A stretch of 64,000 bases of DNA from an uncultured Bradyrhizobium sp. (GTDB lineage Bacteria; Pseudomonadota; Alphaproteobacteria; Rhizobiales; Xanthobacteraceae): contig NZ_CANSMR010000004.1 of assembly GCF_947648125.1 (NCBI RefSeq), forward strand, positions 310,001 through 374,000, given 5' to 3'. Shown here piece by piece: positions 4,101-62,413 of this stretch (its first letter is position 1; every line of letters begins with the position of its first letter). The position numbers were made by a program, and so were the translations under genes. Under the pieces are notes generated by a model. The model ran no database searches, was not told where the DNA came from, and saw only the letters and a program-made list of their open reading frames with translations.

Positions 4101-4128
4101 ACCGAACCTCTTCGCCAGTGGTGCGTCG

Positions 4129-7100
4129 ATGAACCTCGTGACATTCGCGCTGATCAGACCTGTCACCATCGTCGTGACGGTGGTCGCGGTGGCACTGCTG
4201 TCGCTGCTGGCCTGGCAACAAATGCCAAAGGACGTGTTTCCGACGCTGAACGTTCCGACGATTTATGTCGCGCAACCGTTCGGCGGCATGGATCCGGCGC
4301 AGATGGAAGGCTATCTGACGTACTATTACGAGTACCACTTCCTTTACATGGCGGGCGTCGAGCACGTCGAGTCGAAGTCCATCCAGGGCGCAGCGATCAT
4401 CAAGCTACAGTTTCATCCCGGCACCGACATGTCGCAGGCGATGGCGGAGACGGTCGCCTACGTGAATGCCGCCAAGGCCTTCATGCCCTACGGCACCTTG
4501 CCGCCGTTCATCACGCGCTTCGATGCCGGCAGCGTTCCCGTCGGCAATCTGGTCTTCTCCAGCGAGACGAGGTCCGTCAACGAGATTCAGGACGCGGCGT
4601 TGAACCTGGTTCGCCCGCTGTTCGCGACGCTGCCGGGGGTCTCCGCTCCGCCACCGTTCGGCGGCAGCGCCAGGACCATCGTCGTCAAGCTGAAGCCCGA
4701 ACGGCTCAAGTCCTATCAGATGTCACCCGACGACGTCGTCGACGCGATCACCAAAGCCAACCTGGTCAGTCCGTCGGGCAACATGATGCTGGCCGGCATG
4801 TACCCAATGGTCCCGCTCAACGCCGTCGCGGCGAACGTCAAGGACCTCAACGCGGTGCCGATACATCCCGGCGCCTTGCCGACGGTCTTCGTGCGCGACG
4901 TGGCGGACGTGCAGGACGGTGCCGACATCGTGACGAGCTACGCGCTCGTCGATGGACGGCGCACCGTCTACATCCCGGTCACCAAACGCGCCGACGCCTC
5001 AACGCTGTCCGTCGTCGACGAGGTCAAGCGCAACATCGCCAAATTCCAGACCGTGCTTCCGAGCGATGTGAAGGTCAGCTACGAATTCGACCAATCCCCC
5101 TATGTCAGCCATGCGCTCTCCGCCTTGACGCTGGAAGGTATTCTTGGCGCAGCGCTGACCGGCTTGATGATCCTTCTGTTCCTGCGCGACGCGCGCAGCG
5201 CCTTGATCGTGGTCGTCAATATCCCGCTTTCGCTGATGGCCGGCATCTTCGCACTCTGGCTCAGCGGCCAGACGGTCAACATCATGACGCTCGGTGGTCT
5301 GGCGCTGGCGGTCGGCATCCTGGTCGATGAGGCCACCGTCTGCCTGGAGAACATTCACGTGCATCTCACGCGCGGCAAGGGTCTCGCCCAGGCGGCCTGT
5401 GACGCCACCGTGGAAACGGTGGGGCCGCGGCTCTTGGCGATGCTGTGCATCGTGGCGATGTTCACCCCCGCGCTGTTCATGGTCGGAGCCGCCCGCGCGA
5501 TGTTCACGCCGCTTGCGTTGGCCGTCGGCTTCGCCATGATCGGCTCGTACTTGCTGTCAAGCACGCTGGTCCCGATCCTGTCGGTCTGGCTGCTGCGCGG
5601 TCACGAGAACCCGACGCCTGGCACCGAGCGCTTCAGGGGTCTTCAGGAAGCCTACGCGCGACGCCTGAACTCGCTGGCGCCGGCCAGGTTGCTGATGGCG
5701 GGTTACCTGGTCGCGTCAGTGGTCGTGATTGTTCTGGTCGGAAGCCGTCTCGGCACCGAGATCTTCCCGCGGGTCGATGCGGGGCAGATGCAGGTACGGT
5801 TGCGCGCGACCGCCGGCACCCAGATCGACGGCACCGAAAAGGTCGCGCTGCATGCCCTCGATATCATCAAGCGAGACGCCGGAGCGGACAACGTCCTGAT
5901 CTCCCTCGGCCTGCTCGGCGTCCACGGATCGAACTTCCCGATCAATTTCGTGCATCTGTGGAACGGCGGCCCCGAAGAGGGCGTCCTCCAGGTCCAGCTG
6001 CGAAAGGGCACCGGCGTGCGTATGCGGGACCTGGAGGAGCGTCTCCGCAAGGATTTTGCCGCCGAGATCCCGACGGCGAGCTTTTCGTTCGAACCTGGCG
6101 ACATCGTGAGCCGGGTCATGAGCCTCGGGGCCTCGACGCCGATCGAAGTGGCGGTCAGCGGCTCGGACCTCGCCGAGATCCGCCGCTTTGCCGAGAAGGT
6201 GAAGGATCGACTGAGCGCGATCGGCCAACTGCGCGACGTTCAGTTCGGTCAGTCGCTGGACTATCCGACGGTCGACGTTGCGGTGGATCGCGAGCGCGCC
6301 GGGATCCTGGGCGTAGATATCCACCAAGTGTCCCGTGCGCTGATTCCGGCGACATGGTCCAGCCGTTTCGTCGTCCCCAACTACTGGGCCGATCCCAACA
6401 GCGGCGTCGCCTATCAGGTGCAGGTGCAGATCCCGCAACAGCTGATGACCTCGCTCGACGACGTCGGCAACCTGTCGGTTCTCGAACACAAGCAAAAGGA
6501 AATGGACAAGGTCGAAAAGGACAAGAAGGCCCCCAAGCTGGAGAAGATGCACCCGGACGAGAAGGACGTTCTGCTGCGTAACGTTGCCCAAATCAGCGAA
6601 GGCACCGCGATGTCCGAATACGATCGCTACAACATGCAGCGACTGATCACGGTCAAAGCCAATCTCGGCACCGGCGATCTCGGCTCGGCCTCACGGCTGG
6701 TCTCGAAGGCGCTGGTCGATCTTGGCCCACCGCCGCCGAAGGTCTCGGTGGCCGTGCGCGGCGAGGTGGTGCCGATGCAGGAAATGATGCAGGGGCTGGG
6801 ACGCGGCATGGCGCTTGCCGTGGTTGCGATCTTCCTGCTGCTGACCGCCTATTACCAGTCGGTGAGGCTCGCATTGATCACCGTGTCGACGGTTCCCGCG
6901 GTGCTGGCCGGGGTCATCGTGGCGCTCTGGCTCACCGGGTCCACACTCAATATCCAGTCGTTCATCGGCGCCATTATGGCGATCGGCATCGGCGAGGCGA
7001 ACGCCATCCTACTCGTGACCTTTGCCGAGAATGCGCGCCGCGACGGCACCAGCGCGGCCGAGGCCGCGGTGGAAGGCGCGCGAAGCCGGCTGCGTCCGAT

Positions 7101-48303: not shown

Positions 48304-49974
<1,671 letters not shown>

Positions 49975-50015: not shown

Positions 50016-50972
50016 TCAATCGGAGAAAGTTTCAAGAGCCCTTTGGCCAGCCAAGCCGGGCTTTGCCTTCTGTTGGTCCCGCTCCCGGGTGGCGTACACC
50101 AACGAATTGTCAACCCTGGCACAGACTGCGGCCTTAAGGCGCTCAAAAGCGCGCTGCTCGATCTGCCGGATTCGCTCGCGTGAAACGCGGTACTCTCTCG
50201 CCAAGTCATCCAGCGTCTTTGGTTCGTCTGTGAGCATCCGCGCTTCCAGAATTGCGCGTTCACGTGCCGACAGCACCTTGAGTGCCTCCGAAAGAGCAGT
50301 CTTTCGTCGTTCGTAGTCATCAGCGTCCGCCAGCAGGGTTTCAGAATCGGGCGAAGGATCGGCCAAACGATCCTGCCATTCCTGGGAAGTGTCTTCGTCG
50401 CTTATCGAGACATTGAGGGAGGCGTCACCACGCAGTCGCCCATTCATCTCGATCACCTCCGACGGACTTACCTTTAGGTGTTCCGAGATGTAACTCACCT
50501 GGTCCGGATGCAGATCGCCATCCTCAAGAGCGGACAACCTGTTCTTGAGCTTTCTGAGATTGAAGAAAAGTTTCTTTTGGGCAGCAGTGGTGCCCAACTT
50601 GACGAGTGACCAGGACCTCAGGATGTATTCCTGGACAGACGCCCTAATCCACCACATCGCATAGGTGGCCAGACGAAAGCCCCTCTCAGGTTCAAAGCGT
50701 TTGACGGCCTGCATCAATCCGAGATTTGCTTCCGAAACGAGATCAGCAATCGGCAGGCCGTAGCGGCGATATTTCATCGCGATCTTTGCCGCCAGCCAGA
50801 GATGACTCGTCACCAGGTGATAAGCGGCCTCGCGATCGCCATGATCTCGCCAGCGCCTGGCGTAGCTGGCCTCCTCGGACGCTTCCAAGAACGGAAATTT
50901 TCGAATCTCCGTCAGGTATCGGGAGAGCCCTCCATCCGAGGAGACCGAGGGAAGTGCTGCCATGCCCACCAT
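50016..50972 (-). CDS. rpoH: RNA polymerase heat-shock sigma factor RpoH
   Basis: 318 aa from ATG 50972 (SD AAAGGAG, 8-base spacing). Region 2: LVSEANLGLMQAVKRFEPERGFRLATYAMWWIRASVQEYILRSW. The RpoH box QKKLFFNLR at residues 132-140 identifies the heat-shock class. Region 4: TLDDLAREYRVSRERIRQIEQRAFERLK. It directs RNA polymerase to heat-shock promoters. Rhizobia have several rpoH genes; this one lies in a unit headed by a ROSE-controlled hsp20, as known for rpoH1 in Bradyrhizobium japonicum. It presumably activates the CTTGAA promoters of the island. Confidence 0.96.
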   Translation of the reverse strand: MVGMAALPSVSSDGGLSRYLTEIRKFPFLEASEEASYARRWRDHGDREAAYHLVTSHLWLAAKIAMKYRRYGLPIADLVSEANLGLMQAVKRFEPERGFRLATYAMWWIRASVQEYILRSWSLVKLGTTAAQKKLFFNLRKLKNRLSALEDGDLHPDQVSYISEHLKVSPSEVIEMNGRLRGDASLNVSISDEDTSQEWQDRLADPSPDSETLLADADDYERRKTALSEALKVLSARERAILEARMLTDEPKTLDDLAREYRVSRERIRQIEQRAFERLKAAVCARVDNSLVYATRERDQQKAKPGLAGQRALETFSD

Positions 50973-51007
50973 GATGTTCGCTCCTTTCTTCCCCATTTGC
51001 ATGCGTA

Positions 51008-51235
51008 TCATCGGGAGGTGGTTGCCGTCGTCTTGGCGGCCACTTTGCTCGCGAGAGAAGACACTCTTCGGTGCAACCGGCGAGCGCGCTTCCTCACATA
51101 AGCTTTGGCGCTATGGCGGCCGGCGATGCCGCGGCGTCCCCTGGAGGAGAGAACAACGGACCGTCGTTCGAGCCATTCCAGGAGACGATCGTAAGTTCGG
51201 GTGATCTCTCGAAACCAAGCGCTAAGGTGCCTCAT
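51008..51235 (-). CDS. Small basic protein under ROSE control
   Basis: 75 aa from ATG 51235. A longer frame to 51406 exists, but the start is fixed by the ROSE element whose final hairpin holds GGAGGA just before 51235. The sequence (MRHLSAWFREITRTYDRLLEWLERR...) begins as an amphipathic helix and becomes strongly Arg/Lys-rich. It may bind nucleic acid or membrane. It sits 35 bases before rpoH and is likely co-expressed with it. No known family. Confidence 0.6.
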   Translation of the reverse strand: MRHLSAWFREITRTYDRLLEWLERRSVVLSSRGRRGIAGRHSAKAYVRKRARRLHRRVSSLASKVAAKTTATTSR

Positions 51236-51419: not shown

Positions 51420-51743
51420 CTAGGCTGCCGCCCGCCGCTCGGTCGAGTGCAGGCGCATAGGCCTCCCGCCTGGCGGATTGCGCGGACCACCGTCAAGGGC
51501 GCACAAGGCCTCGAGAATTTCGTCGACGCGGATGGGCGCCTTAAGGCCCTCCGGCGCGCGAAGGGCGGGAGAGGACGCGATCGCCGAGGCATCGGACGCC
51601 CACGAGGCGAGGATGGCGCGCTTCTCACCGAGGCTTAACGTCGGGTCACCGACCACGTCGCGCGGATGCGCATAGACTTTGCCGGGATGAAGAAACGCTT
51701 CAAATTCGAATACGTTGTCATGACGAGCGGTCGTCGGCCGCAT
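51420..51743 (-). CDS. Small stress-island protein with SWASD module
   Basis: 107 aa from ATG 51743 (SD TTGGAGG). Its core HPxKVYAHPRDVVGDPTLSLGEKRAILASWASD...SPALR...RVDEIL is clearly homologous to the N-terminal half of the protein at 61678. It lies between an hsp20 and rpoH. The module is unknown to me; it is soluble, acidic and helix-rich, with the invariant SWASD and PALR motifs. Probably an accessory of the heat-shock response. Confidence 0.75.
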   Translation of the reverse strand: MRPTTARHDNVFEFEAFLHPGKVYAHPRDVVGDPTLSLGEKRAILASWASDASAIASSPALRAPEGLKAPIRVDEILEALCALDGGPRNPPGGRPMRLHSTERRAAA

Positions 51744-51826
51744 GGTTGCCTCCAATTCCAAAGACGAGTTTGAGGTAGCCGCGCGGTGATCCGCGCGGCT
51801 GGGTTGGCGCCGAGTGGAAAGATCGA

Positions 51827-52279
51827 TCAGGCGGCCTTCGCCTCGATTTGCCTGACATTGCCTGTGCTCACTTCGCCGATCGGGATGCGGCGCGGCTTCA
51901 TCGCTTCCGGAATTTCGCGCAGAAAGTCGATGATAAGCAGGCCGTGCTCGAAGCGAGCACCCCTGACCTCGACATGGTCGGCCAGTGTGAATTGGCGCCG
52001 GAAGGAACGCGCCGAAATGCCGCGATGCAGAAAGGTCTTCTCTTCCTTCTCACCCTTGCGGCCTTCGAGCGTCAGCACATTTTGCTCGACGGTGAGCGCG
52101 ATCTCGTCCTGCGTGAATCCCGCCAGAGCCACCGAAATTCGGAAGCGGTTTTCGTCGAGACGCTCGATGTTGTAGGGGGGATAGCTCTCTTCGGCAGTCC
52201 GCTGGACCTCGTCGAGAACGTCAAAAAGGCGGTCGAAGCCGATGGTCGACCTCCAGAGGGGAGTCCAATCATACCTCAT
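51827..52279 (-). CDS. Small heat-shock protein Hsp20 (class A, ROSE-controlled)
   Basis: 150 aa from ATG 52279. Short N-terminal arm (MRYDWTPLWRSTIGFDRLFDVLDE), alpha-crystallin domain with YPPYNIERLDENRFRISVALAGF and GISARSFRRQFTLADHVEVRGARFEHGLL, and C-terminal RRIPI anchor motif. It is a holdase of the IbpA-like rhizobial class A. The 33 upstream in-frame residues are the translated ROSE element, not protein. A near twin of the Hsp20 at 60565. Confidence 0.95.
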   Translation of the reverse strand: MRYDWTPLWRSTIGFDRLFDVLDEVQRTAEESYPPYNIERLDENRFRISVALAGFTQDEIALTVEQNVLTLEGRKGEKEEKTFLHRGISARSFRRQFTLADHVEVRGARFEHGLLIIDFLREIPEAMKPRRIPIGEVSTGNVRQIEAKAA

Positions 52280-52392
52280 AGCCAAATCCTCCTGAGAGCA
52301 AGTTGGGTACGAGCCGGCACCGGACACCTGCCGGTGCCCGCCTTTCAGTCCGGGGCCCATGTGGCGCCCCGGCCGCATCTCTGCGTACCCAA
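52280..52392 (-). promoter_or_regulatory. ROSE-type RNA thermometer, copy 2
   Basis: The 5' leader of the hsp20 at 51827. Minus-strand ACTTGCTCTCAGGAGGATTTGG precedes the ATG, the ROSE core. Further stems: GGCACCGG/CCGGTGCC and a closing stem GGGTACG (52384-52390 complement) with CGTACCC (52305-52311 complement). This multi-stem layout fits ROSE elements described in Bradyrhizobium. Confidence 0.88.
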
Positions 52393-52393
52393 A

Positions 52394-52438
52394 AGAATCT
52401 TCAAGCTTGGAAAAAGTTCAAGAGGGTGGGGAAAATTT
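52394..52438 (-). promoter_or_regulatory. Promoter of the ROSE-hsp20 unit
   Basis: Minus strand: AAATTT (52433-52438), ten bases later CTTGAA (-35, 52417-52422), 17 bases, then GATTCT (52394-52399) as weak -10. The AAATTT-N10-CTTGAA layout recurs at 55131 and 60399. Confidence 0.5.
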
Positions 52439-52489
52439 TTCTGCTTCCGGCAACGGCGTGGTTAACCCACCGTTGAGTGCCCGCGGTGT

Positions 52490-52517
52490 CTTGACAGTGG
52501 GCTTCCCGCGCCTAATT
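52490..52517 (+). promoter_or_regulatory. Rhizobial promoter for the plus-strand small-gene cluster
   Basis: CTTGAC (52490-52495), 16 bases, CTAATT (52512-52517): close to the rhizobial housekeeping consensus CTTGAC-N17-CTATAT. About 65 bases upstream of the gene at 52582 and back to back with the hsp20 promoter. Confidence 0.55.
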
Positions 52518-52581
52518 TTTTCGGCGCAAGGGGGCTTTTCCTCTTGCACAAGGAAAGCATGACGACCGTCAGGAGACGACG

Positions 52582-52791
52582 ATGATCGAGGAGAATCTTG
52601 CCCGCCTGCGGGCGTACCGCAACAACATTCGCCGCTACGAGCGGTTGCTCGCGACGCAACTCTCGGACCTGGAGCGGGCCTTCATCGTAAAGCGACTGGA
52701 GGAAGAACAGGCCGAAGCCGAAGCTCTCGTCAAAACGACATTTCCCTTCAGTCTGCCGGCGCTTGGGCAACCGGCGGAAGCAGCAGCTTAG
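52582..52791 (+). CDS. Small stress-island protein with YRxLLxTxL module
   Basis: 69 aa; SD AGGAGACG before ATG 52582. The helical core NIRRYERLLATQLSDLERAFIVKRLEEEQAE matches the C-terminal module of 61678 and the protein at 62225, and more distantly 52801. Probably a short helical hairpin. It is divergent from the ROSE-hsp20 unit. Unknown function. Confidence 0.7.
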   Translation: MIEENLARLRAYRNNIRRYERLLATQLSDLERAFIVKRLEEEQAEAEALVKTTFPFSLPALGQPAEAAA

Positions 52792-52800
52792 AGGCGCGTC

Positions 52801-52986
52801 ATGTCTGGACTCGAAGCTTTCATTATCCGGGGACACGAGAAAATCATCGATCACTATCGGCGACTGCGCGATTCCGCTCCTTCCCGCGCCGAGCGCGAAC
52901 GTTTCCAGCGGTGTATGGAGGAAGAAGAGGAAGCTTTGCGGAAGTTTGTCGAAGGGCGATCGCCTCCGCTACGGCGCGCGGCATAG
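52801..52986 (+). CDS. Small helical protein, distant YRxLLxTxL-module relative
   Basis: 61 aa, starting nine bases after the previous stop. HYRRLRDSAPSRAERERFQRCMEEEEEALRKF follows the same pattern as its neighbour (HYRRL, then ER, then a Glu-run), which suggests an old tandem duplication. SD is GAGGCGCGTC. Function unknown. Confidence 0.6.
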   Translation: MSGLEAFIIRGHEKIIDHYRRLRDSAPSRAERERFQRCMEEEEEALRKFVEGRSPPLRRAA

Positions 52987-53032
52987 TCCTCCGCGGTCGC
53001 CACGCTCTTTTCCCAGAGACACGCATACCTTG

Positions 53033-53239
53033 GTGCGTGACTTATGCACGACCACGGCGTTTTTGCAGAGCCAAAGAGATGGATTGGTCTCGCATGAGGA
53101 GCGTGAGGCCTTTGTCTATCTGCGAACATGGATCGACGCCCTGCATTCCATCGACCAGCCGCAGACAGTCGAGATTCCCGTGCCGCGTGTTCGTGAAATG
53201 CCGTCGCACTCGAGCAAGGAAAGGTGGGAGAGGGTTTGA
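53033..53239 (+). CDS. Hypothetical 68-aa protein
   Basis: From GTG 53033, 68 residues (VRDLCTTTAFLQSQRDGLVSHEEREAFVYLRTWIDALHSIDQ...), helical and protein-like. An upstream extension is possible but runs through the previous gene in another frame. Its TGA overlaps the next ATG (TGATG at 53237-53241), a sign of translational coupling. No family recognised. Confidence 0.45.
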   Translation: MRDLCTTTAFLQSQRDGLVSHEEREAFVYLRTWIDALHSIDQPQTVEIPVPRVREMPSHSSKERWERV

Positions 53240-53437
53240 TGATTGACAAAAAGCGCCGCCCCACCTTTGCGGGTGCCGCAGACCTCGTCGCGCACGCTAA
53301 GGTGGCGGCCCGCCATCTTTGAAGACCTGTGCGCAGCTTGCACGAACGGCGACAAGGGTGCGGCACGAGCAGCGCTGCGCCAGGCGATTAGCGAGCTCGA
53401 GGTGGCGCGAGCCATGTTACGGACTGGACTTGAATGA
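53239..53437 (+). CDS. Small protein that may need a +1 frameshift at CTT-TGA
   Basis: ATG 53239 (SD GGGAGAGG) opens 27 codons ending ...VAARHL then TGA at 53320. Directly after, in the +1 frame, EDLCAACTNGDKGAARAALRQAISELEVARAML continues to 53437. The junction is CTT-TGA, the same slippery stop used by prfB (RF2), and a +1 slip would give a 65-aa protein. No clear stimulatory SD lies three bases upstream, which prfB has. Alternatives are a sequencing or real frameshift, or a separate TTG start at 53243. Confidence 0.4.
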
Positions 53438-53477
53438 GGGGGAGCAACATTGTCGGGTATCTCGCGATGAGGTTGTG

Positions 53478-53699
53478 ATGACGACGAAGGTTCATGATGC
53501 GTTGACGGAGGCCCTTGATTGCGTGAAGGCAAGGGGGCTTATCCGCAAGTACAGCCTTGTCTGGAGTGGACGGAGCGAGGTGCCGCACATCACCGTCTGG
53601 AAAGCGACCGATGCTTCAGATGAAGCGCTGCGCCACTCTCTTGCGGAATCTCTTGCCGGCCTCGCAACCGAGTCGCAGGTTACCATTGAAAGAGAGTAG
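53478..53699 (+). CDS. Hypothetical 73-aa protein
   Basis: ATG 53478 with SD GAGG. MTTKVHDALTEALDCVKARGLIRKYSLVWSGRSEVPHITVWKATDAS... has an alpha-beta pattern and looks soluble. It belongs to the plus-strand string of small stress-island genes. No family recognised. Confidence 0.5.
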   Translation: MTTKVHDALTEALDCVKARGLIRKYSLVWSGRSEVPHITVWKATDASDEALRHSLAESLAGLATESQVTIERE

Positions 53700-54075
53700 G
53701 TGGGTTTGGGTGTTACGAATCCCGAGTTCTCCTCGGCTCTTTGCGATGCCGAGTGACCTGCCGCGAGCCCTGCCCGAAGCAGGGATTTCAAACTTGGCCA
53801 ACAGTTCAGGACCTGCGAGTGTCGAGGAGGGCCGCTAATCACACGCTCACCTGTCAACACAACGCAATGAAGCCCGACGAAGCTATTCCGGAAGTTCGGC
53901 CGAGCAGCTGCTCTTGAAGATTGGCCACGCTGCTCTAGATCGCTTACCGCTAAGGACGAATGGCCGCGGATCAGATTCGGGGCGCCGTTTAGACAACTTC
54001 AGCAAGATGGGCTCGTCAGCGGCATGAGGGGCGGGAGATAAGGTCCGACTGCTGCGCTCCCGGCGAGGTGTGACC
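53700..54075. other. Stretch without a firm gene
   Basis: A 30-codon frame from ATG 53746 contains a CCCTGC/GCAGGG hairpin (near 53770) and could be a terminator region. A G-rich stretch near 53960-54060 leads into the next gene. Nothing else is supported. Confidence 0.4.
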
Positions 54076-54291
54076 ATGGCAGTTCGCATAGAGATTGTCA
54101 TTGAATGTGGTCAAGGGAAGGTGCCGCCAAGGGCGTATGTTGGAATGCCTGCCGGCTCTCTTGACCAGGATGGTAGGACGGTGCTCACGACCCGTGAAGC
54201 CTCGTTCGCTGCATTGGAGGCGCAGGTGCGTGAGATAAAGGCGCAATTGGATGCCTGTCTCGCCGAAGCAAAGGCTTGCTTGCCAGCTTGA
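54076..54291 (+). CDS. Hypothetical 71-aa protein
   Basis: ATG 54076 with GAGG eight bases upstream. The start MAVRIEIVIECGQGKVPPRAYVGMPAG suggests a beta-rich head and ALEAQVREIKAQLDACLAEAKACL a coiled-coil tail with two Cys. No family recognised. Confidence 0.5.
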   Translation: MAVRIEIVIECGQGKVPPRAYVGMPAGSLDQDGRTVLTTREASFAALEAQVREIKAQLDACLAEAKACLPA

Positions 54292-54316
54292 GTCGGTGCG
54301 CTAGGAATTCATAAGG

Positions 54317-54526
54317 ATTTCGGAGCGCATTGAGGTTGAGGAAGCGCCCTTCCGCGACCAGCTTCCTTCTCTATCTCTCTACTCCTCATCGAACGACAAG
54401 AAAATCATTCGTTTAGAGATACCCGAGGCGCCGATCTGGCTGAACGAAGTTGTGCCGGATCAGAGTTCATTTCAGGACTTCGCTGACTATCTCTGCCTTT
54501 TTTGCGCAAGGCGAAGCGTAGGCTAG
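54317..54526 (+). CDS. Protein-like frame with no ATG, GTG or TTG start
   Basis: A 69-codon frame bounded upstream by TAG 54302 reads RIEVEEAPFRDQLPSLSL ... KIIRLEIPEAPIWLNEVV, which looks like real protein. No ordinary start codon precedes the protein-like part; AAGGATTTC near 54315 would put a ribosome site on ATT or ATA. Either a rare start codon or a 5'-truncated remnant. Confidence 0.3.
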   Translation: MSERIEVEEAPFRDQLPSLSLYSSSNDKKIIRLEIPEAPIWLNEVVPDQSSFQDFADYLCLFCARRSVG

Positions 54527-54581
54527 CGGGCCTCGCACGTAAGGCCGGTCCGATGCGGATGATCAGTCAACTGAGGTCGCC

Positions 54582-54782
54582 TCACTTCGGCGGCTGGAGT
54601 CCGGGAGACGTGATCCAGCTAGCTACTTCGGCTACCATTTCGTTTTCGCGAGCCTTTCGTAGAAGCTCTGCCTGCTCCGGCCCTGGAGGAAGCTTTTTTG
54701 CTTCGTCTCTAAGGCGTTTGGCTTCGTCGGCGAGCCGTTCTTCGAGGGTAATGGTTTGTCTAAAACGGCGGCGAATCTTCAT
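54582..54782 (-). CDS. Hypothetical 66-aa helical protein
   Basis: ATG 54782 with SD GAGG. Charged helices ITLEERLADEAKRLRDEAKKLPPGPEQAELLRKARENE, a pattern I have seen in many Bradyrhizobium small proteins. Soluble; function unknown. Only minus-strand gene in this part of the island. Confidence 0.55.
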   Translation of the reverse strand: MKIRRRFRQTITLEERLADEAKRLRDEAKKLPPGPEQAELLRKARENEMVAEVASWITSPGLQPPK

Positions 54783-55130
54783 GACACAACCTCGTGCTTA
54801 CGGGTCCTAACCGTAGGGTTCGCACTTTCGGTTTTAGTACGTAGTCACGCGGCGATCTGTTTCCAAGTTACCAGGCACCAAACTCGATCACCACCAACGA
54901 CGCGTACGTCTTGATGCCGGCCAAGTCTCGTCGCATGCAGCGGCAATGCGCGATGCGCTGCCAGCAACAGCACCCCCGGGGCTAGCATGATGCGGGACCA
55001 TGCGGACAGCAGAGATAGCCCCGCACCGGTTCGGACCGTCAACCAAACCAATCTTATGCAGTGTTTTCGTGCATCGCCTGGGTCGCCGCTGCAAGCCGCA
55101 CGTTGACAGTCGCTTAGTGGGAGCGCCAAA

Positions 55131-55175
55131 AAATTTCGTCGTTCCCCTTGAATCGGATTTTTTCTGCCCCTAGGT
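55131..55175 (+). promoter_or_regulatory. Heat-shock-type promoter of groESL
   Basis: AAATTT (55131-55136), ten bases, CTTGAA (-35, 55147-55152), 17 bases, CTAGGT (-10, 55170-55175); the CCCCTA overlapping the -10 also fits RpoH promoters (CTTGAA ... CCCCAT). No CIRCE inverted repeat is seen, so control by HrcA is unlikely. 54783-55130 holds no gene. Confidence 0.65.
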
Positions 55176-55244
55176 GGTTTTTCCGCCGGGGGCTGGTTAC
55201 CGGCTCCGGTTAAATGACTCGCTAGACTGTTAAGGAGGATGTGC

Positions 55245-55559
55245 ATGCATTTCCGTCCGTTGCACGACCGTGTGCTCGTGCGCCGCATTGATGCCGAGGA
55301 GAAGACCGCCGGGGGCATCATCATTCCCGACACCGCAAAGGAGAAGCCGCAGGAAGGCGAGATCATCGCTGCTGGTCCCGGCGCGCGGAATGAGCAGGGC
55401 CAATTGGTACCGCTCGACGTGAAAACGGGAGACCGCGTCTTGTTCGGCAAATGGTCGGGGACCGAGGTGAAGATCGATGGCCAGGATCTCCTGATCATGA
55501 AGGAGAGCGATCTCCTGGGTATCGTCGAGCATAGCGGCAAGTTGAAGAAAGCGGCCTGA
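55245..55559 (+). CDS. groES: GroES co-chaperonin
   Basis: 104 aa from ATG 55245 (SD AAGGAGG; an ATG at 55239 lies inside it). Complete fold: [36 protein letters not shown] (mobile loop included) and [29 protein letters not shown]. It caps GroEL. It leads the groES-groEL operon and must also serve the lone GroEL at 48304. Confidence 0.97.
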
Positions 55560-55585
55560 CGCCGCTGAAAAACTGACAGTCATAA

Positions 55586-57229
<1,644 letters not shown>

Positions 57230-57237
57230 CAAGATTT

Positions 57238-57265
57238 GCGCCCGGCTGGCCGAACGGCCGGGCGC
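57238..57265 (+). terminator. GC-rich hairpin after groEL
   Basis: GCGCCCGGC (57238-57246) pairs with GCCGGGCGC (57257-57265); a T-poor but pyrimidine-rich TCGCTTCATCTCT follows. A likely terminator or processing stem for groESL. Confidence 0.6.
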
Positions 57266-57320
57266 TCGCTTCATCTCTAAGCAAGGAGATCATTAACACA
57301 AAGAGAAATGGGGATCCAAA

Positions 57321-57437
57321 ATGAGCACCCGGATCGAAGCTCTGTTGCGAAAGAGTGAGGCTGCCTCGAATTGGCTCATGCTGGCCTCAAGCTTTGCAAC
57401 CATCGCATGGGTAAGTTTTCGAACGATAGGAGGATGA
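57321..57437 (+). CDS. 38-aa peptide upstream of an exported protein
   Basis: ATG 57321 (GGGGA nine bases before) opens 38 codons: a charged head (STRIEALLRKSEAAS) and one hydrophobic helix (NWLMLASSFATIAWVSF). Its last codons contain the AGGAGG of the next gene, whose ATG is one base after its TGA. A leader peptide or small membrane protein; coupling is likely. Confidence 0.45.
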   Translation: MSTRIEALLRKSEAASNWLMLASSFATIAWVSFRTIGG

Positions 57438-57438
57438 G

Positions 57439-57771
57439 ATGATCAAAGATCAAACCATTGGCTCCGCTCGTGCGGAGAAAGGTCGCGCCAACAGCCGCAT
57501 TATTCAAAGTCTGATGACAGCGTTGCTGGCATCGGCGCTGACGCTGCCGTCGCTGGCCGCTTGGGGAACGGAGCGTTCGCCGGAGCAACCAGCGGCGAGA
57601 GCCGGCGACGTCCTGCCTTTGCCGCCAATCCGGTATCTCGACTCGATGCCCTGGATGAACTGGAAGGCATCGGCGCCGACGCTGAGGATCGATACGCTCA
57701 TGTCCCCGAGCATCACGCCCTGGGGTGTCCTGAAACCCCCTCAGGAGCCGACCTCGCCGACATTGGGTTGA
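57439..57771 (+). CDS. Small exported protein in the heat-shock island
   Basis: 110 aa; SD AGGAGG. A long n-region, then a signal peptide (SLMTALLASALTLPSLAAW). The mature part is Pro-rich with two WxxW-like spots (PWMNWKAS) and no Cys. It lies between groEL and two hsp20 genes. No family recognised; perhaps a periplasmic stress protein. Confidence 0.55.
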   Translation: MIKDQTIGSARAEKGRANSRIIQSLMTALLASALTLPSLAAWGTERSPEQPAARAGDVLPLPPIRYLDSMPWMNWKASAPTLRIDTLMSPSITPWGVLKPPQEPTSPTLG

Positions 57772-57877
57772 TTGCTGCTTTCATCAGCAATGCGGACAGT
57801 GACTCGCGATCCGCATCGCGTTGATCGTGGTTGAACAGCTGTCTTGTGCCTTTTGAGGCCGTCAACGGAGGAAATAG

Positions 57878-58303
57878 ATGTTCGCTGGCTTTAGTGACCC
57901 ATTTGAAGCGCTGCTGGCTCTGCAGCGCGCACTCGACGCACGCGTCGCAAGCGACTGGATGGGACGGGGAACCGCTGCGATCGGCAGTTTCCCGCCCATC
58001 AATATATTCCAGAAGGATGGCGACCTTGTTGCTGTCGTCGAACTGCCAGGTGTCGACAAAAACGATCTGGAAATCGAAGCGAAGGAAAATACCATTCGCA
58101 TCCGGGGCAAAAAGACGATCGCTTATGGAGAGCAGGCGAGCGTCCATCGCCGCGAGCGTATCAGTGGCGTGTTTGACCGGACGTTATCGGTGCCGATTCG
58201 GATCGAACCTGATCGAATCAAGGCCGAATATCGCGACGGCATCCTTGCGCTGTTCATACCGCGGGCAGAGGCCGATAAGCCGCGTTCCATCAAGGTAAGC
58301 TAG
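57878..58303 (+). CDS. Small heat-shock protein Hsp20
   Basis: 141 aa; SD GGAGG before ATG 57878. The alpha-crystallin domain starts near PINIFQKDGDLVAVVELPGVDKNDLEIEAKENTIRIRGKK and ends YRDGILALFIPRAEADKPRSIKV. Class C-like rhizobial sHSP. It is ten bases upstream of the next hsp20; such pairs often form hetero-oligomers. Confidence 0.95.
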   Translation: MFAGFSDPFEALLALQRALDARVASDWMGRGTAAIGSFPPINIFQKDGDLVAVVELPGVDKNDLEIEAKENTIRIRGKKTIAYGEQASVHRRERISGVFDRTLSVPIRIEPDRIKAEYRDGILALFIPRAEADKPRSIKVS

Positions 58304-58313
58304 GGAGGCTACT

Positions 58314-58712
58314 ATGGCAGAGTCCCAGGAACTACAGGTCCAGCAGAAGCGCGAAGTTGAGAAGAAAACCGAAGGCACGACGCCGGGACGGGCATTCGTG
58401 CCAGTGACGGACATATTTGAGACTCCCGAGGCGCTGACGGTCGTACTGGAGATGCCGGGCGTCGACCGCAATAGCATCGAGGCGAATGTCGAGGATGACA
58501 TCGTCACTATTGAAGGTCGGATTGATTTCTCGAAGTATGAAGGGATGCAGCCGGTCTACACCGAATACAACGTGGGCCACTACGCGCGCAGCTTTCAGAT
58601 CTCCAACAAGGTTGACCAGAGCAAGATCAGCGCCCAAATGAAAGACGGCGTGGTCACGATCGTGCTGCCCAAAGCCGAGCAGGCCAAGCCGCGCAAGATT
58701 CAGGTGAGTTAG
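58314..58712 (+). CDS. Small heat-shock protein Hsp20
   Basis: 132 aa; SD GGGAGG. A charged N-terminal arm (QQKREVEKKTEGTTPG) precedes the crystallin domain (VPVTDIFETPEALTVVLEMPGVDRNSIEANVEDDIVTIEGR ... MKDGVVTIVLPKAEQAKPRKIQV). Co-transcribed with the previous hsp20 and divergent from it, so the two likely have different partners. Confidence 0.95.
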   Translation: MAESQELQVQQKREVEKKTEGTTPGRAFVPVTDIFETPEALTVVLEMPGVDRNSIEANVEDDIVTIEGRIDFSKYEGMQPVYTEYNVGHYARSFQISNKVDQSKISAQMKDGVVTIVLPKAEQAKPRKIQVS

Positions 58713-59157
58713 CGCGGCCTGCCATCGTGAGGCTGCTGGCTTCGGAATTTCGACTCGATGATCTTCGGCGTTGGCGCTGAGACTGGCGCCACGCCTGGGC
58801 TGCAGCAGAGAACCCCGAGATAGAACGCGGACGAGACCGGCGTTCACTTGCGACGTTGGCCGAGCGGGTTAGATGACGCCAAAGTGCAGTCCGCGTTGCG
58901 CTGGAAAGCTTTCTTGCTCATGTTGGCCCTTGAAAACCGTAACGGATCATCTTCCTCATCTAGGTGGTCGGCCCGGCCGGACGACCTAAGGGCGCGGACT
59001 CGAAACGCGCAGCCAGCCATAGCCGGATGGATGCGAGTTGGACGAAGGCACCGACAATTTCCGCTGAAACCGTGCCAATGGAGACTTCTTGCCTTTGGGT
59101 TCAGTGCTATGATTGGCGCACCTACTGCAGTGCACGTCCGGGTTTTGGGGGTCCCCA
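58713..59157. other. Stretch without a supported gene
   Basis: GC-rich, with only short frames of Arg/Ser-rich composition typical of non-coding high-GC DNA. A CTTGAAAACCG near 58930 resembles a -35 but has no partner. It separates the hsp20 pair from the kinase. Confidence 0.4.
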
Positions 59158-60168
59158 TTGGCGCCTAAAGAACAGTCGGGGCTTCAACGCGAACCTCTCG
59201 TCAGCGAGCCGGCCCTGGAACGTGCCGAGCGCTTGGCCAATCTGCTGGCCTCCATAGTTGAGAATAGCGACGATGTGATCGTTAGCAAAAATCTGGACGG
59301 CATTATTACAAGCTGGAACAGGGCGGCTGAGCGCATCTTCGGCTATTCGGCCGCCGAGGCGATCGGCCAGCCCATTACACTTGTGATTCCGGAGGACCGA
59401 CAAAGCGAAGAACGCGAGATTTTAACCCGCATCCGACGTGGTGAGCGCATCGACCACTTTGAGACCGTTCGGCGACATAAAGATGGTAGCTCAATCGTCG
59501 TTTCGCTGACCATTTCTCCTGTCAAGGATGCCCGCGGCAACATCATTGGCGCATCAAAGATTGCGAGGGATATTACCGAGCACAAGCGAGCTCAGGAACA
59601 GATTGGCGTTCTGGCGCGCGAGGCGGAGCACCGAAGCAAGAACATCCTCGCGAACGTACAGGCAATCATCAATCTTTCTCAGTCCGACACCTGCGAGCGC
59701 CTCAAGGAAGTGATCAGCGGGCGCATCCAAGCGATGGCAAATGTTCACTCGCTGTTCGTTGAAGCGCGGTGGATAGGAGCGGAAGTCTCGGCGATCGCCA
59801 AGCAGGAGCTTGCCCCTTATCTCCAGGAGGGTCACGACAAGCGGATTCTGATGGACGGTCTGCAAACCGTATTAGAACCCACCGCTGCGCAGGCGATTGC
59901 TGTGGTTCTGCATGAATTGGCAACCAACGCTGCCAAGTATGGAGCGCTATCGAACGCGAAAGGCCGGATTGCATTGACGTGGTCGCGCACCCAGGATGGA
60001 CAGGTAATACTCCGCTGGACCGAATTGGGCGGTCCGAAAGTAAATGCGCCCGAACGCAAGGGCTTCGGTAGTCGCCTCATCGAAGGAACCATCAGGCCAC
60101 TTGGCGGCAAGGTGCTCTTTGACTGGCGCGCGGAAGGGCTGGTTTGCGAAATCGCCGTTCCGACGTAA
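59158..60168 (+). CDS. PAS-domain HWE-type histidine kinase
   Basis: 336 aa from TTG 59158, which follows GGGGG; a TTG at 59113 adds 15 residues. A PAS domain (about 20-140; SDDVIVSKNLDGIITSWNRAAERIFGYSAAEAIGQPI) leads to the HWE/HisKA_2 core: phospho-His in EAEHRSKNILANVQAI, ATP site VVLHELATNAAKYGALS and GGPKV...GFGSRLIEGTI. No membrane helix, so cytoplasmic. In alphaproteobacteria such kinases feed the general stress response (PhyR-NepR-EcfG), which fits the setting. No response regulator is adjacent. Confidence 0.9.
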   Translation: MAPKEQSGLQREPLVSEPALERAERLANLLASIVENSDDVIVSKNLDGIITSWNRAAERIFGYSAAEAIGQPITLVIPEDRQSEEREILTRIRRGERIDHFETVRRHKDGSSIVVSLTISPVKDARGNIIGASKIARDITEHKRAQEQIGVLAREAEHRSKNILANVQAIINLSQSDTCERLKEVISGRIQAMANVHSLFVEARWIGAEVSAIAKQELAPYLQEGHDKRILMDGLQTVLEPTAAQAIAVVLHELATNAAKYGALSNAKGRIALTWSRTQDGQVILRWTELGGPKVNAPERKGFGSRLIEGTIRPLGGKVLFDWRAEGLVCEIAVPT

Positions 60169-60228
60169 AATCCAATCGAGCTTGGCTTCGCTGCTCTCGC
60201 GACATATTGCGCTGCTCCACACAGTTTC

Positions 60229-60378
60229 CTGATCGCGAACGAGCGGCGGGTCATTCTGCATTGCAAAAAACTGCGCGACGATCCCTCGACCGAAGAACGC
60301 CGCCAGCTGATGCGCTTGGTCAGCGAGGCCGAAACTTGGCTGAAAGGTCTCGCTGCGCAAGCTGCAACGCAAAATTAA
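60229..60378 (+). CDS. Possible 49-aa remnant without a standard start
   Basis: After the kinase stop the same frame continues and, from CTG 60229, reads like protein (ERRVILHCKKLRDDPSTEERRQLMRLVSEAETWLKGL). No ATG, GTG or TTG precedes it. Similar short helical proteins are common in Bradyrhizobium. Probably a truncated gene. Confidence 0.25.
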   Translation: MIANERRVILHCKKLRDDPSTEERRQLMRLVSEAETWLKGLAAQAATQN

Positions 60379-60398
60379 CCGAAGGAAAATCGCCGCAA

Positions 60399-60443
60399 AA
60401 ATTTTTCGGGACGCCCTTGAAATTGATTACCCTTCTTCTAAGT
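60399..60443 (+). promoter_or_regulatory. Promoter of the second ROSE-hsp20 unit
   Basis: AAATTT (60399-60404), 11 bases, CTTGAA (-35, 60416-60421), 16 bases, CTAAGT (-10, 60438-60443). Same design as the promoters at 52394 and 55131. Confidence 0.55.
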
Positions 60444-60449
60444 CGTTTT

Positions 60450-60564
60450 TTGCCGCTTGCAGTGGTGCCGGGCGCCAGCTTTGGGTCCGGTGAACTGAAC
60501 AGGGCGTCAGACACGGGTGTCTTGCGCTCCTTCGTATCCATCTTGCTCTCAGGAGGACTTGGCT
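60450..60564 (+). promoter_or_regulatory. ROSE-type RNA thermometer, copy 3
   Basis: The leader ends CATCTTGCTCTCAGGAGGACTTGGCT just before ATG 60565, the ROSE core in which TTGCTCT hides AGGAGGA. Upstream stems include GCCGGGCGCC and GACACGGGTGTC. Nearly identical core to copy 2, so the translated leaders look alike (SYPSCSQEDLA and SYPTCSQEDLA). Confidence 0.9.
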
Positions 60565-61014
60565 ATGAGGACTTATGATTTCGCTCCCCTGTGGCGTTCG
60601 AGCATCGGCTTCGACCGCCTTTTCGATCTCCTCGACGAAACCCAGCACAGGACCGAGGACAGTTACCCGCCCTATAACATCGAACGGCTCGGCGAAGATC
60701 GCTATCAGATCTCGCTGGCGCTGGCCGGATTCGGCCCCGATGAGATCGCGGTGACGGCCGAGCAGAACGTGCTCACCGTGGAAGGCCGCAAGGGCGGCAA
60801 GGACCAGCACGAATATCTCTACCAGGGCATTTCGGCTCGGCCGTTCAAGCGGCAATACAACCTTGCTGACTACGTCCAGGTGAAAACTGCCGCGTTCGAC
60901 AACGGCCTGCTCCGGATCGAACTCGTCCGCGAAATCCCCGAGGCCATGAAGCCCCGGCGCATCGCCATCGGCGGTGGCGCCCCGGCCGGGCAAATCACGC
61001 AGAAGGCAGCTTAG
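60565..61014 (+). CDS. Small heat-shock protein Hsp20 (class A, ROSE-controlled)
   Basis: 149 aa from ATG 60565. Crystallin domain YPPYNIERLGEDRYQISLALAGFGPDEIAVTAEQNVLTVEGRKG ... FDNGLLRIELVREIPEAMKPRRIAI. A close paralogue of the protein at 51827, with the same leader. It holds unfolding proteins for refolding and is turned on by melting of the thermometer. It leads a run of stress genes to 62949. Confidence 0.95.
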   Translation: MRTYDFAPLWRSSIGFDRLFDLLDETQHRTEDSYPPYNIERLGEDRYQISLALAGFGPDEIAVTAEQNVLTVEGRKGGKDQHEYLYQGISARPFKRQYNLADYVQVKTAAFDNGLLRIELVREIPEAMKPRRIAIGGGAPAGQITQKAA

Positions 61015-61091
61015 CCCGCCTTTCGCTTGATCTCGTCGCACGGGCCGCAATTTGTCCGGGCGTCGACCAGCTTCATGTCAAGGAGGATATC

Positions 61092-61589
61092 ATGGGTATT
61101 CGTGATCTTGTTCCGTGGACGAAAGGTCAGCAGCTCCCAACCCGTCAGGAGCCTTTCGATCCGTTTCTCACGCTTCACCGCGAGATGAACCGGCTTTTCG
61201 ACGACGTCTTTCGCGGGTTCGGCCCGCTCGGTCGCTTCGGCAATCCTTTGATGGAGGGCCAATTCACCTGGCCTCGGCTCGAACTCAGCGAAACCGACAA
61301 GTCGGTCACGGTTACGGCCGAACTTCCAGGTCTCAGCGAAAGGGACGTTCAGGTCGAGATCGCCAACGGCGTTCTTTCGATCCGCGGCGAGAAGAAGGCC
61401 GACCGCAGCGACGACTCGAAGTTCGTCAGCGAACGCTACTACGGATCGTTCGAACGCCAGATTTCGCTGGAGGGCGTCGAAGAAGACAAGGCGCAAGCCG
61501 ACTTCAAGAACGGCGTCCTCACTGTAACGCTTCCGAAGTCTGAGCAGTCAAACCGCAACGTCAAGCGTATCGCGATCAATACCAACTGA
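61092..61589 (+). CDS. Small heat-shock protein Hsp20 (Hsp16.5-like)
   Basis: 165 aa; SD AAGGAGG. The N-terminal arm (MGIRDLVPWTKGQQLPTRQEPFDPFLTLHREMNRLFDDVFRGF) is longer and different from the class A proteins. Crystallin domain: LELSETDKSVTVTAELPGLSERDVQVEIANGVLSIRGEKK; anchor NVKRIAINTN. This type is widespread in stress-tolerance islands. A strong terminator follows. Confidence 0.95.
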   Translation: MGIRDLVPWTKGQQLPTRQEPFDPFLTLHREMNRLFDDVFRGFGPLGRFGNPLMEGQFTWPRLELSETDKSVTVTAELPGLSERDVQVEIANGVLSIRGEKKADRSDDSKFVSERYYGSFERQISLEGVEEDKAQADFKNGVLTVTLPKSEQSNRNVKRIAINTN

Positions 61590-61595
61590 AAGCAA

Positions 61596-61622
61596 GAAGG
61601 CGGCGGCGTGGCCGCCGCCTTC
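61596..61622 (+). terminator. Perfect 12-bp hairpin after hsp20
   Basis: GAAGGCGGCGGC (61596-61607) and GCCGCCGCCTTC (61611-61622) pair perfectly around GTG. No T-run follows, but the stem is very stable. It separates the hsp20 pair from the SWASD gene. Confidence 0.7.
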
Positions 61623-61677
61623 AACCTCCTCTCAGATCAACCTGTCTCTCCACGAAAGGAGCAAAAGGAGACACGAC

Positions 61678-62196
61678 ATGAGCCAAGCCAATCGCACCGC
61701 CAACAATGTTGGGCCCGTTTTCCACCCGGCATCTCATTACAATTCACCCGACGATGTCTTGGGTGATTTCAAGCTGTCCACCGACGAAAAGCGAGTAATC
61801 TTGTCGTCCTGGGCATCGGATATGTACACCGTCGAATCCCAGCCCGCCCTTCGTGAGGTCCCGGGTCTCCCGCACAGACTACGTTTGGACAGCATCCTGG
61901 CGGCGCTGAAGCAGCTTGAGGACGAGGACGATCCACCGCCACGCGGGGGATTGGCCATGCGGCTTCCTCGTCTCAGCAAGCTTGATTGCACTGCGTCGGA
62001 CAGACCGCAGCGTATGTTCGGAAGGCACGCAGCCACCAGGCGGCATCGGTCGATGCCGGCGCCGCGCACAGCAAATCATTTGCGATGGACTCGCGAAGCA
62101 AATGTGCGGCGATATCGAAAGCTCCTGAACACACAATTGACTGACGTTGAACGCACCTTCATAGAGCGGCGGCTCGCTGAAGAACTGCAGAGCTGA
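61678..62196 (+). CDS. Fusion of SWASD and YRxLLxTxL modules
   Basis: 172 aa; SD AAAGGAG. Residues about 15-90 are the SWASD module (FHPASHYNSPDDVLGDFKLSTDEKRVILSSWASD ... PALREVPGL ... RLDSILAALKQL), homologous to 51420. After a basic linker, residues about 135-172 (NVRRYRKLLNTQLTDVERTFIERRLAEEL) are the module seen alone in 52582 and 62225. A fusion suggests that the separate proteins interact. Unknown function; conserved with ROSE-hsp20 genes. Confidence 0.75.
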   Translation: MSQANRTANNVGPVFHPASHYNSPDDVLGDFKLSTDEKRVILSSWASDMYTVESQPALREVPGLPHRLRLDSILAALKQLEDEDDPPPRGGLAMRLPRLSKLDCTASDRPQRMFGRHAATRRHRSMPAPRTANHLRWTREANVRRYRKLLNTQLTDVERTFIERRLAEELQS

Positions 62197-62224
62197 CAGG
62201 GCTTAAGGGTCAGTGGGTTCGGTG

Positions 62225-62413
62225 ATGTCTACGATTGATGACAGCTTCAGTGAGATCAGATCCGTACGGAACGACATCTGGCGCTGTCGTAGGCTGCTCC
62301 AGACTGAGCTCGTCGATGCTGAACGAGAAATTGTGGAGAAACGCCTTCGCGAACGGCTGTCAACCTTTGAAGGGCTGTTAGCGTCTGCATTCCCCTTGGC
62401 CTTGAAGCTTTGA
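62225..62413 (+). CDS. Small protein with YRxLLxTxL module
   Basis: 62 aa from ATG 62225. [50 protein letters not shown] matches 52582 in both the helical core and the tail (FPF/FPL near the C-terminus). Its stop overlaps a TTG in front of greA, so coupling is possible. Confidence 0.7.

Follow-up and report, generated by a model that had tools for sequence, protein, structure and literature searches.

We analyzed a window of 64,000 nucleotides from an uncultured Bradyrhizobium sp. (contig NZ_CANSMR010000004.1, positions 310,001 to 374,000), in which two small protein modules, A and B, are encoded beside genes for small heat-shock proteins (sHSPs; Hsp20). Module A forms a stand-alone protein (A1) and the first part of a fusion with module B (A2-B), and module B also forms the stand-alone proteins B1 and B2 and has a weaker relative, B' (Table 1). 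What we can state most firmly is that sHSP genes have a conserved companion in this branch of A. In this genus, A closes short gene runs headed by an Hsp20 under the control of a ROSE (repression of heat-shock gene expression) RNA thermometer. A is furthermore widespread in Alphaproteobacteria and tied to sHSP genes there as well. These results partly support an earlier note on this DNA, which was right about the family and about A and wrong to give B the same linkage; the function that it proposed, a client adaptor or an accessory of ribosomes or chaperones in the heat-shock response, is conjectural.

The A1 and A2-B proteins have in common the motif HP..Y..P.DV.GD..LS..EKR.IL.SWASD followed by PALR, and A2-B retrieved A1 from the host genome with an E value of 3.9e-15, as expected from the earlier description of this module; the longer ending SPALR given there is exact in A1, and A2-B has QPALR instead. 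These are the only two copies of A that a profile search lists in the host genome. Similarly, module B was recovered in all three proteins to which it had been assigned: B1 matches the A2-B tail (E = 6.7e-5, host genome search) and B2 (E = 4.4e-8), and B2 versus the tail gave only E = 0.10. B' was not listed by either single-sequence search (with A2-B or with B1 as the query), and its standing as a weak B relative, also anticipated, is based on B' queries that match B genes elsewhere with E values from 6e-5 to 7e-4. Both A and B are conserved proteins under purifying selection. Indeed, the ratio of nonsynonymous to synonymous substitution rates (dN/dS) was about 0.1 to 0.3 in 13 of 15 comparisons, those in which dS was finite (0.1 to 0.25 for A1), with dN and dS against relatives of 0.12 and 0.46 for A2-B, 0.18 and 1.63 for A1, and 0.15 and 1.25 for B2; dS was saturated in the other two, one of B1 and one of B'.

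We searched 100 relatives with the A2-B protein and found matches to its A or B part (E of 0.01) in 60 of them, that is, in 55 of the 60 genomes of the same genus as the window (Bradyrhizobium) and in 5 of the 40 others. Leaving out the host genome, 95 matches to the A part among those listed, down to E = 1.7e-8, led to 94 regions within the genus. An hsp20 gene was matched in 87 of these 94 regions, where 0.0098 per region is expected from the 9 hsp20 genes in the 8.57 Mb of the host genome. Furthermore, in 89 of the 97 A matches in these regions an hsp20 gene lies upstream on the same strand, 81 times within 150 bp, with a median of 88 bp between the aligned ends. For comparison, we examined 40 regions of the same genus that surround B genes and lie apart from the A regions; hsp20 was present in one, which encodes a B-A fusion. 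Downstream of A on the same strand we found DegP in 21 cases and rpoH in 9 pairs from 7 regions, with rpoH matched in 10 of the 94 regions overall. The seven A regions lacking hsp20 are L210, where the contig begins at A, L225, L242, L248, L253, L258, and L264 (numbers with L denote our loci). At L225, L242, and L264, the A copy adjoins a B gene and no hsp20 was found.

The A genes also follow their Hsp20 genes in type. Among 86 pairs with hsp20 at no more than 400 bp, classified by labels of our own from the best match to reference Hsp20s, 44 of 45 A1-type genes come after a single class A hsp20; of 41 A2-type genes, 34 come after a pair of one class A and one class B gene and 7 after a single class A gene. 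Distances between A proteins correlate with those between the adjacent Hsp20s (r = 0.52, n = 86; the maximum of 500 permutations was 0.11). A and Hsp20 are therefore inherited as a unit, which is not in itself evidence of contact. In 15 hand-picked regions, all with hsp20, a ROSE element was present at the A-linked hsp20 in 13, the exceptions being L186, where ROSE stands at another hsp20, and L203, which has none. An RpoH-like promoter precedes the first hsp20 in 31 of 89 cases (mean of 1.6 and maximum of 5 in shuffled sequences); directly ahead of A, such a promoter was found in 2 of 97 cases, within the shuffle range.

This setting could suggest that A, and B with it, regulates the heat-shock response, for instance as a feedback factor on RpoH, the ROSE RNA, or Hsp20 levels. 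A does sit behind ROSE-controlled genes and is followed by rpoH on the same strand in the pairs mentioned above and in the window. We nevertheless find a regulator improbable, since rpoH is matched in so few of the A regions, no DNA- or RNA-binding family was matched in Pfam or NCBIfam scans, and A persists where its neighbors are groESL and usg.

Library searches agreed with the earlier note, whose author knew no description of this family, nothing near the cut-off being found in Pfam, NCBIfam, PHROGs, or PADLOC. In these four libraries, no match was listed for A, including to the Usg-like family PF06233 of Pfam, which is matched by a separate neighbor gene of L043 and not by A; B and B' gave weak matches only (best E = 0.043), and members of the wider family described below reached E = 0.12 at best. 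We found no description of A or B in the portion of the literature accessible to us; an earlier mention may exist in older publications about the sHSPs and ROSE of B. japonicum. A candidate relative, the mitoribosomal protein mL94, was rejected: the EKR-IL-SWASD core is not common to both, and the match held up neither with other profiles nor with a second orthologue. Leishmania mL94 matched profile A6 (E = 2.9e-4, 23.5 bits; the best shuffle of the 18,166 reported of 20,000 reached 17.5 bits); with profile A3 it gave E = 0.25 and with A4 no match at E = 1, and Trypanosoma brucei mL94, which differs at core positions of A, was not listed with A6 at E = 10. A remote kinship between A and mL94 is conceivable, since the shuffle test, taken alone, favors it.

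The lack of a curated family might also mean that A and B are unrelated small open reading frames (ORFs) or decaying remnants without function, and the A copies beside a B gene at L225 and L264 indeed carry an altered core, SWPLD for SWASD (as read in L016 and L017, which cover these two places). Given the low dN/dS, a core that is near-invariant across families, and hundreds of relatives, this explanation is hardly credible.

Outside the genus, A was found by several routes. A scan of named genomes gave at least 584 relatives, of which the best 80 were kept; Mesorhizobium prevails among them, having supplied the first query row, and as the closest relatives of a query from a groESL/sHSP locus they are a biased sample. 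Within these best 80 of at least 584, hsp20 was found in 69, groES in 67, groEL in 66, Usg in 62, and DUF982 in 51, and at least one of hsp20, groEL, and groES in 79, the exception being L115. The usual order in Mesorhizobium and its relatives is groESL, divergent from A-usg-(DUF982)-hsp20-hsp20. With an A profile, 31 of 249 genomes drawn from the order matched at E = 1e-5, and 20 of 385 drawn from the class matched at E = 1e-3, many of the latter being weak matches to the wider family; both counts are lower bounds because few candidates were scored per genome. Of the 15 strong order-draw matches outside the genus (E = 1.4e-15 or better), 11 have hsp20 or groESL, and together with the three strong class-draw matches outside the order the figure is 12 of 18, the addition being L128, with hsp20 about 2 kb off on the other strand. 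Plasmid records matching A numbered 231, among them 84 from Rhizobium, 64 from Agrobacterium, 16 from Sphingobium, and 14 from Sinorhizobium; 141 are predicted to be conjugative, and the top matches of both A proteins are from Bradyrhizobium. Hsp20 or GroES/GroEL is encoded in 14 of 18 chosen annotated plasmid regions, of which the Microvirga one holds a member of the wider family and not A proper. These results extend the linkage of A to heat-shock genes, which the earlier note had predicted, beyond the genus. That note had also named two findings that would speak against it, a known characterized family and an absence of linkage elsewhere: for A we found neither, and for B an absence of linkage in large part.

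The neighbors of A change with the host. In Sphingobium and Novosphingobium they are groESL-usg, and on Rhizobium and Agrobacterium plasmids Ku/LigD plus Hsp20. We observed A adjoining the nonhomologous end-joining genes Ku and LigD on plasmids of the latter two genera, and LigD on sphingomonad plasmids (L044, L307, L308, L303, L045). On a Methylovirgula plasmid (L042), a second A-like frame at about 5950-6500 is broken by an in-frame stop, and a nearby copy at 4128-4472 is open.

Weaker matches revealed a wider unnamed domain family with the pattern P..VL....LS..QK..IL..W..DA, followed by a variable EE.M.GGE segment. Comparison of A with this family (alignment A4) by hhalign gave a probability of 98.2 (E = 4.9e-14, 67 columns), and a second profile comparison gave 97.7 (E = 2e-12), which supports common descent as far as profiles can tell. 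In a draw of 398 genomes from the phylum, 28 had wider-family matches, all from the same class or closer; at most 14 candidates were scored per genome, so that misses are likely, and a similar limit applied to the class draw. In one branch the domain is fused to an NDUFS4-like domain (PF04800, a complex I accessory subunit). The protein encoded at L046:7644-8411 matches PF04800 over residues 44-123 (E = 4.4e-21) with the A-family segment behind it, and by tblastn it matched L271, L273, L365, L368, and L370 over 620 or more bases (E = 1e-33 or better). All six loci have an hsp20 match (partial in L271), and several have SPW, FtsH, or DegP. Such NDUFS4-like-A proteins in sHSP islands are a possible link between chaperones and complex I.

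The behavior of module B was different. It had been claimed that A and B always stand next to ROSE-hsp20 genes, and inside the window this is so; a further B copy on contig C15 of the host genome (L350), however, has no matched hsp20 or A in about 9 kb around it. A genus search with B1, its self-match left out, gave 81 matches at E = 1e-5 or better, 35 in A regions or the window and 46 elsewhere. Only one of the 40 examined among these 46 has hsp20 nearby, and that one is fused to A, which contradicts the proposed linkage of B to heat-shock genes. Within A regions, B is present in 56 of 94, and B is followed by B' in 33 same-strand pairs. A B profile of 15 rows matched 8 of 249 genomes of the order draw, seven of them of the same genus, the eighth (G940) weakly (E = 7e-5). 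RpoH-like promoters ahead of B genes that diverge, seen in 2 of 21 cases (mean of 0.37 and maximum of 2 in shuffled sequences), did not stand out from chance, though B1 has one. We therefore rejected B as a general heat-shock module, as it is mostly unlinked to hsp20 and nearly confined to the genus; B alone has other settings.

The occurrence of A and B both alone and fused proved to be recurrent. In addition to the A-B fusion of the window, A and B share one open frame, from stop to stop, in 7 of 134 regions, in the order A-B at L190, L199, L237, and L251 and in the reverse order B-A at L175, L200, and L318. That the two modules are joined in either order speaks for joint action in the fused cases, in line with the earlier view that fusion implies cooperation; B on its own, however, has other settings.

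What A does can be approached from its predicted structure. Module A is probably a small, cytosolic, helical domain. The AlphaFold2 model of A2-B contains helices only, with a long helix (residues 35-53) over the EKRVILSSWASD core, a second helix at 70-83, and a helical hairpin for the B part (132-150 and 156-171), and the A1 model has a similar layout; neither gave a convincing match to a solved fold in the PDB. We tentatively propose that A serves the co-expressed sHSP system as a docking or adaptor domain. Docking appears the most likely reading because A is small and helical, has a near-invariant core, is co-inherited with Hsp20 arrangements, and is joined to different second domains. A would be co-transcribed with hsp20 and would dock either on the co-expressed sHSP or on a chaperone or protease to which sHSP clients are passed on, with the near-invariant EKR-IL-SWASD helix as the putative contact surface. 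The fused modules could then supply a second contact, B in this genus and the NDUFS4-like domain in other sHSP islands. A bolder version, which we find doubtful, would make the A branch a dedicated sHSP docking domain joined to varied targeting parts, sending unselective sHSPs to chosen machines in heat stress; the targeting parts would be B, in either order, or the NDUFS4-like domain, which could sit on respiratory complex I.

Several observations weigh against docking. Gene linkage would also be expected of a protein that is simply active under the same stress, and the binomial test of the hsp20 excess ignores the shared ancestry of the regions. The structure models are of moderate confidence, with a mean predicted local distance difference test score of 73 for A2-B and 71 for A1. 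B is present in six of the seven A regions lacking hsp20 (all except L248). Outside the genus, hsp20 and groESL were absent near the order-draw A genes L361, L363, L355, and L362, the last two on short contigs, and near the class-draw genes L127 and L130; they were also absent from 4 of the 18 plasmid regions, whose gene tables are incomplete, namely, those of Sphingomonas paucimobilis and Sphingobium cloacae (LigD nearby), Rhizobium leguminosarum (copper genes), and Agrobacterium fabrum (Ku, LigD, and DUF982). In the wider family, lone members had hsp20 in 0 of 14 weak class-draw regions (L131-L144), so that the wider domain in itself is not tied to sHSP genes, and hsp20 was not found in 3 of 6 weak order-draw regions (L366, L367, L369). 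Finally, an NDUFS4-like gene without A adjoins hsp20 in L305 and L309, and the sHSP linkage of the NDUFS4-like-A fusion may therefore stem from its NDUFS4-like part.

Chiefly because the wider family is not linked to sHSPs, another explanation comes close behind docking and is a real possibility. A could be cargo of stress islands with an activity of its own, such as protection of the nucleoid, ribosome, or membrane, without touching Hsp20, and would travel with sHSP, GroESL, Usg, DUF982, Ku/LigD, and DegP genes as one of a set that helps against a common stress. The variety of its neighbors (groESL-usg, LigD without annotated hsp20, Ku/LigD plus Hsp20, or copper genes) and the many plasmid records predicted to be conjugative fit such cargo. 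Against it, hsp20 is the commonest and closest neighbor in this genus among those looked for, and the A subtype tracks the Hsp20 arrangement.

In the window, the left group runs on the minus strand in the order hsp20, A1, rpoH, groEL, and B1 and B' diverge from its hsp20-A1 run. The right group runs on the plus strand with groES, groEL, two hsp20 genes, a PAS/histidine kinase gene, the ROSE-hsp20 gene, a further hsp20, A2-B, B2, and greA, whose start overlaps the end of B2. The five hsp20 genes all match PF00011 and both ROSE elements score above the Rfam cut-off; rpoH, groES, groEL, greA, and the kinase gene were named by sequence, without a family scan.

Table 1. Features of the two ROSE-hsp20 groups of the window (Hsp20 class labels are our own)
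Feature	Position	Strand	Remarks
GroEL of the left group	48304..49974	-	
RpoH (sigma-32)	50016..51011	-	Downstream of A1, same strand
A1, stand-alone module A	51420..51743	-	About 107 amino acids from ATG 51743, the likely start, with GGAGG ahead; ORF list 51420-51761 from TTG
Hsp20, class A type	51827..52279	-	PF00011; directly upstream of A1, same strand
ROSE RNA thermometer of hsp20 51827..52279	52273..52371	-	RF00435, 75.2 bits
B1, stand-alone module B	52582..52791	+	Opposite in direction to hsp20-A1; 92 bp downstream of an RpoH-like promoter match
B', weak module B relative	52801..52986	+	Directly 3' of B1
ROSE RNA thermometer of second hsp20 run	60468..60571	+	RF00435, 55.4 bits
Hsp20, class A type	60565..61014	+	PF00011
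Hsp20, class B type	61092..61589	+	PF00011; directly upstream of the A-B fusion
A2-B fusion, 172 amino acids	61678..62196	+	A part at about 61717-61929, B part at about 62077-62184; predicted helical
B2, stand-alone module B	62225..62413	+	ORF list 62213-62413 from GTG; 62225 is an inner ATG

Two further small ORFs lie nearby on the minus strand. Between A1 and rpoH, an ORF of 75 amino acids (51008-51235) is preceded by a sequence that by eye resembles the ROSE Shine-Dalgarno hairpin; a ROSE search gave no match there even at E = 5. Against the one relative found, dN about equals dS, and the ORF is therefore probably not a constrained protein; this stretch upstream of rpoH is perhaps a decayed second thermometer. 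An ORF of 66 amino acids (54582-54782) has matches in 10 of the 94 same-genus A regions, and Pfam and NCBIfam scans of it gave nothing near the cut-off.

We compared this arrangement with known systems. As in the window, rhizobial ROSE-sHSP genes have ROSE before a class A Hsp20, often with a class B Hsp20 next, and such a class A-class B pair is the most heat induced in Mesorhizobium loti (PMC3989490); in the accessible part of that account, A and B are not named. In strain MAFF303099, the sHSP genes mll2386 and mll2387 are the two most heat-induced genes, and the 50 strongest include msl2390 (Usg) and mlr2394 (GroEL) as well (PMC3989490). The M. loti gene numbering, so far as that source gives it, fits the order of related Mesorhizobium loci, with A between groES and usg; although the A gene is unnamed in the accessible part of the table, A, too, may be heat induced. 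Usg is itself a close companion: in 60 of the 62 Usg-matched loci among the best 80 of at least 584, it follows A on the same strand at a distance of no more than 120 bp, and the situation is similar in Sphingobium and Novosphingobium. However, Usg (PF06233) and DUF982 are separate genes, and A matches no Pfam family. The likeness to the transmissible locus of stress tolerance, which in the accessible part of its description includes two Hsp20s (PMC8290217), is in outline only, with FtsH and DegP present in some A loci; unlike that island, the window from 48 to 64 kb has no ORF of ClpG/ClpK size, its largest being the two GroELs of 556 and 543 amino acids. This comparison rests on Hsp20, FtsH, DegP, and ClpG/ClpK; YfdX, HdeD, KefB, and Trx were not looked for. 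As to NDUFS4-like proteins, an A-family domain follows PF04800 within one protein in sHSP islands, whereas A itself is not PF04800 and the fusions lie in related loci, not in the window.

The general view of small heat-shock proteins is that they are promiscuous holdases. In many alphaproteobacteria, nitrogen-fixing symbionts among them, and also on plasmids, their genes are accompanied by that of A, a conserved protein without a family in the four libraries searched. If A is indeed an sHSP partner, it would explain how some sHSP gene sets specialize, offer a handle on how well rhizobial inoculants tolerate heat, and supply the first function for a wide unnamed domain family. Should the bolder version of docking hold, A would represent a class of bacterial sHSP adaptors. 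The NDUFS4-like fusion connects chaperones with respiratory complex I in a specific way that can be tested.

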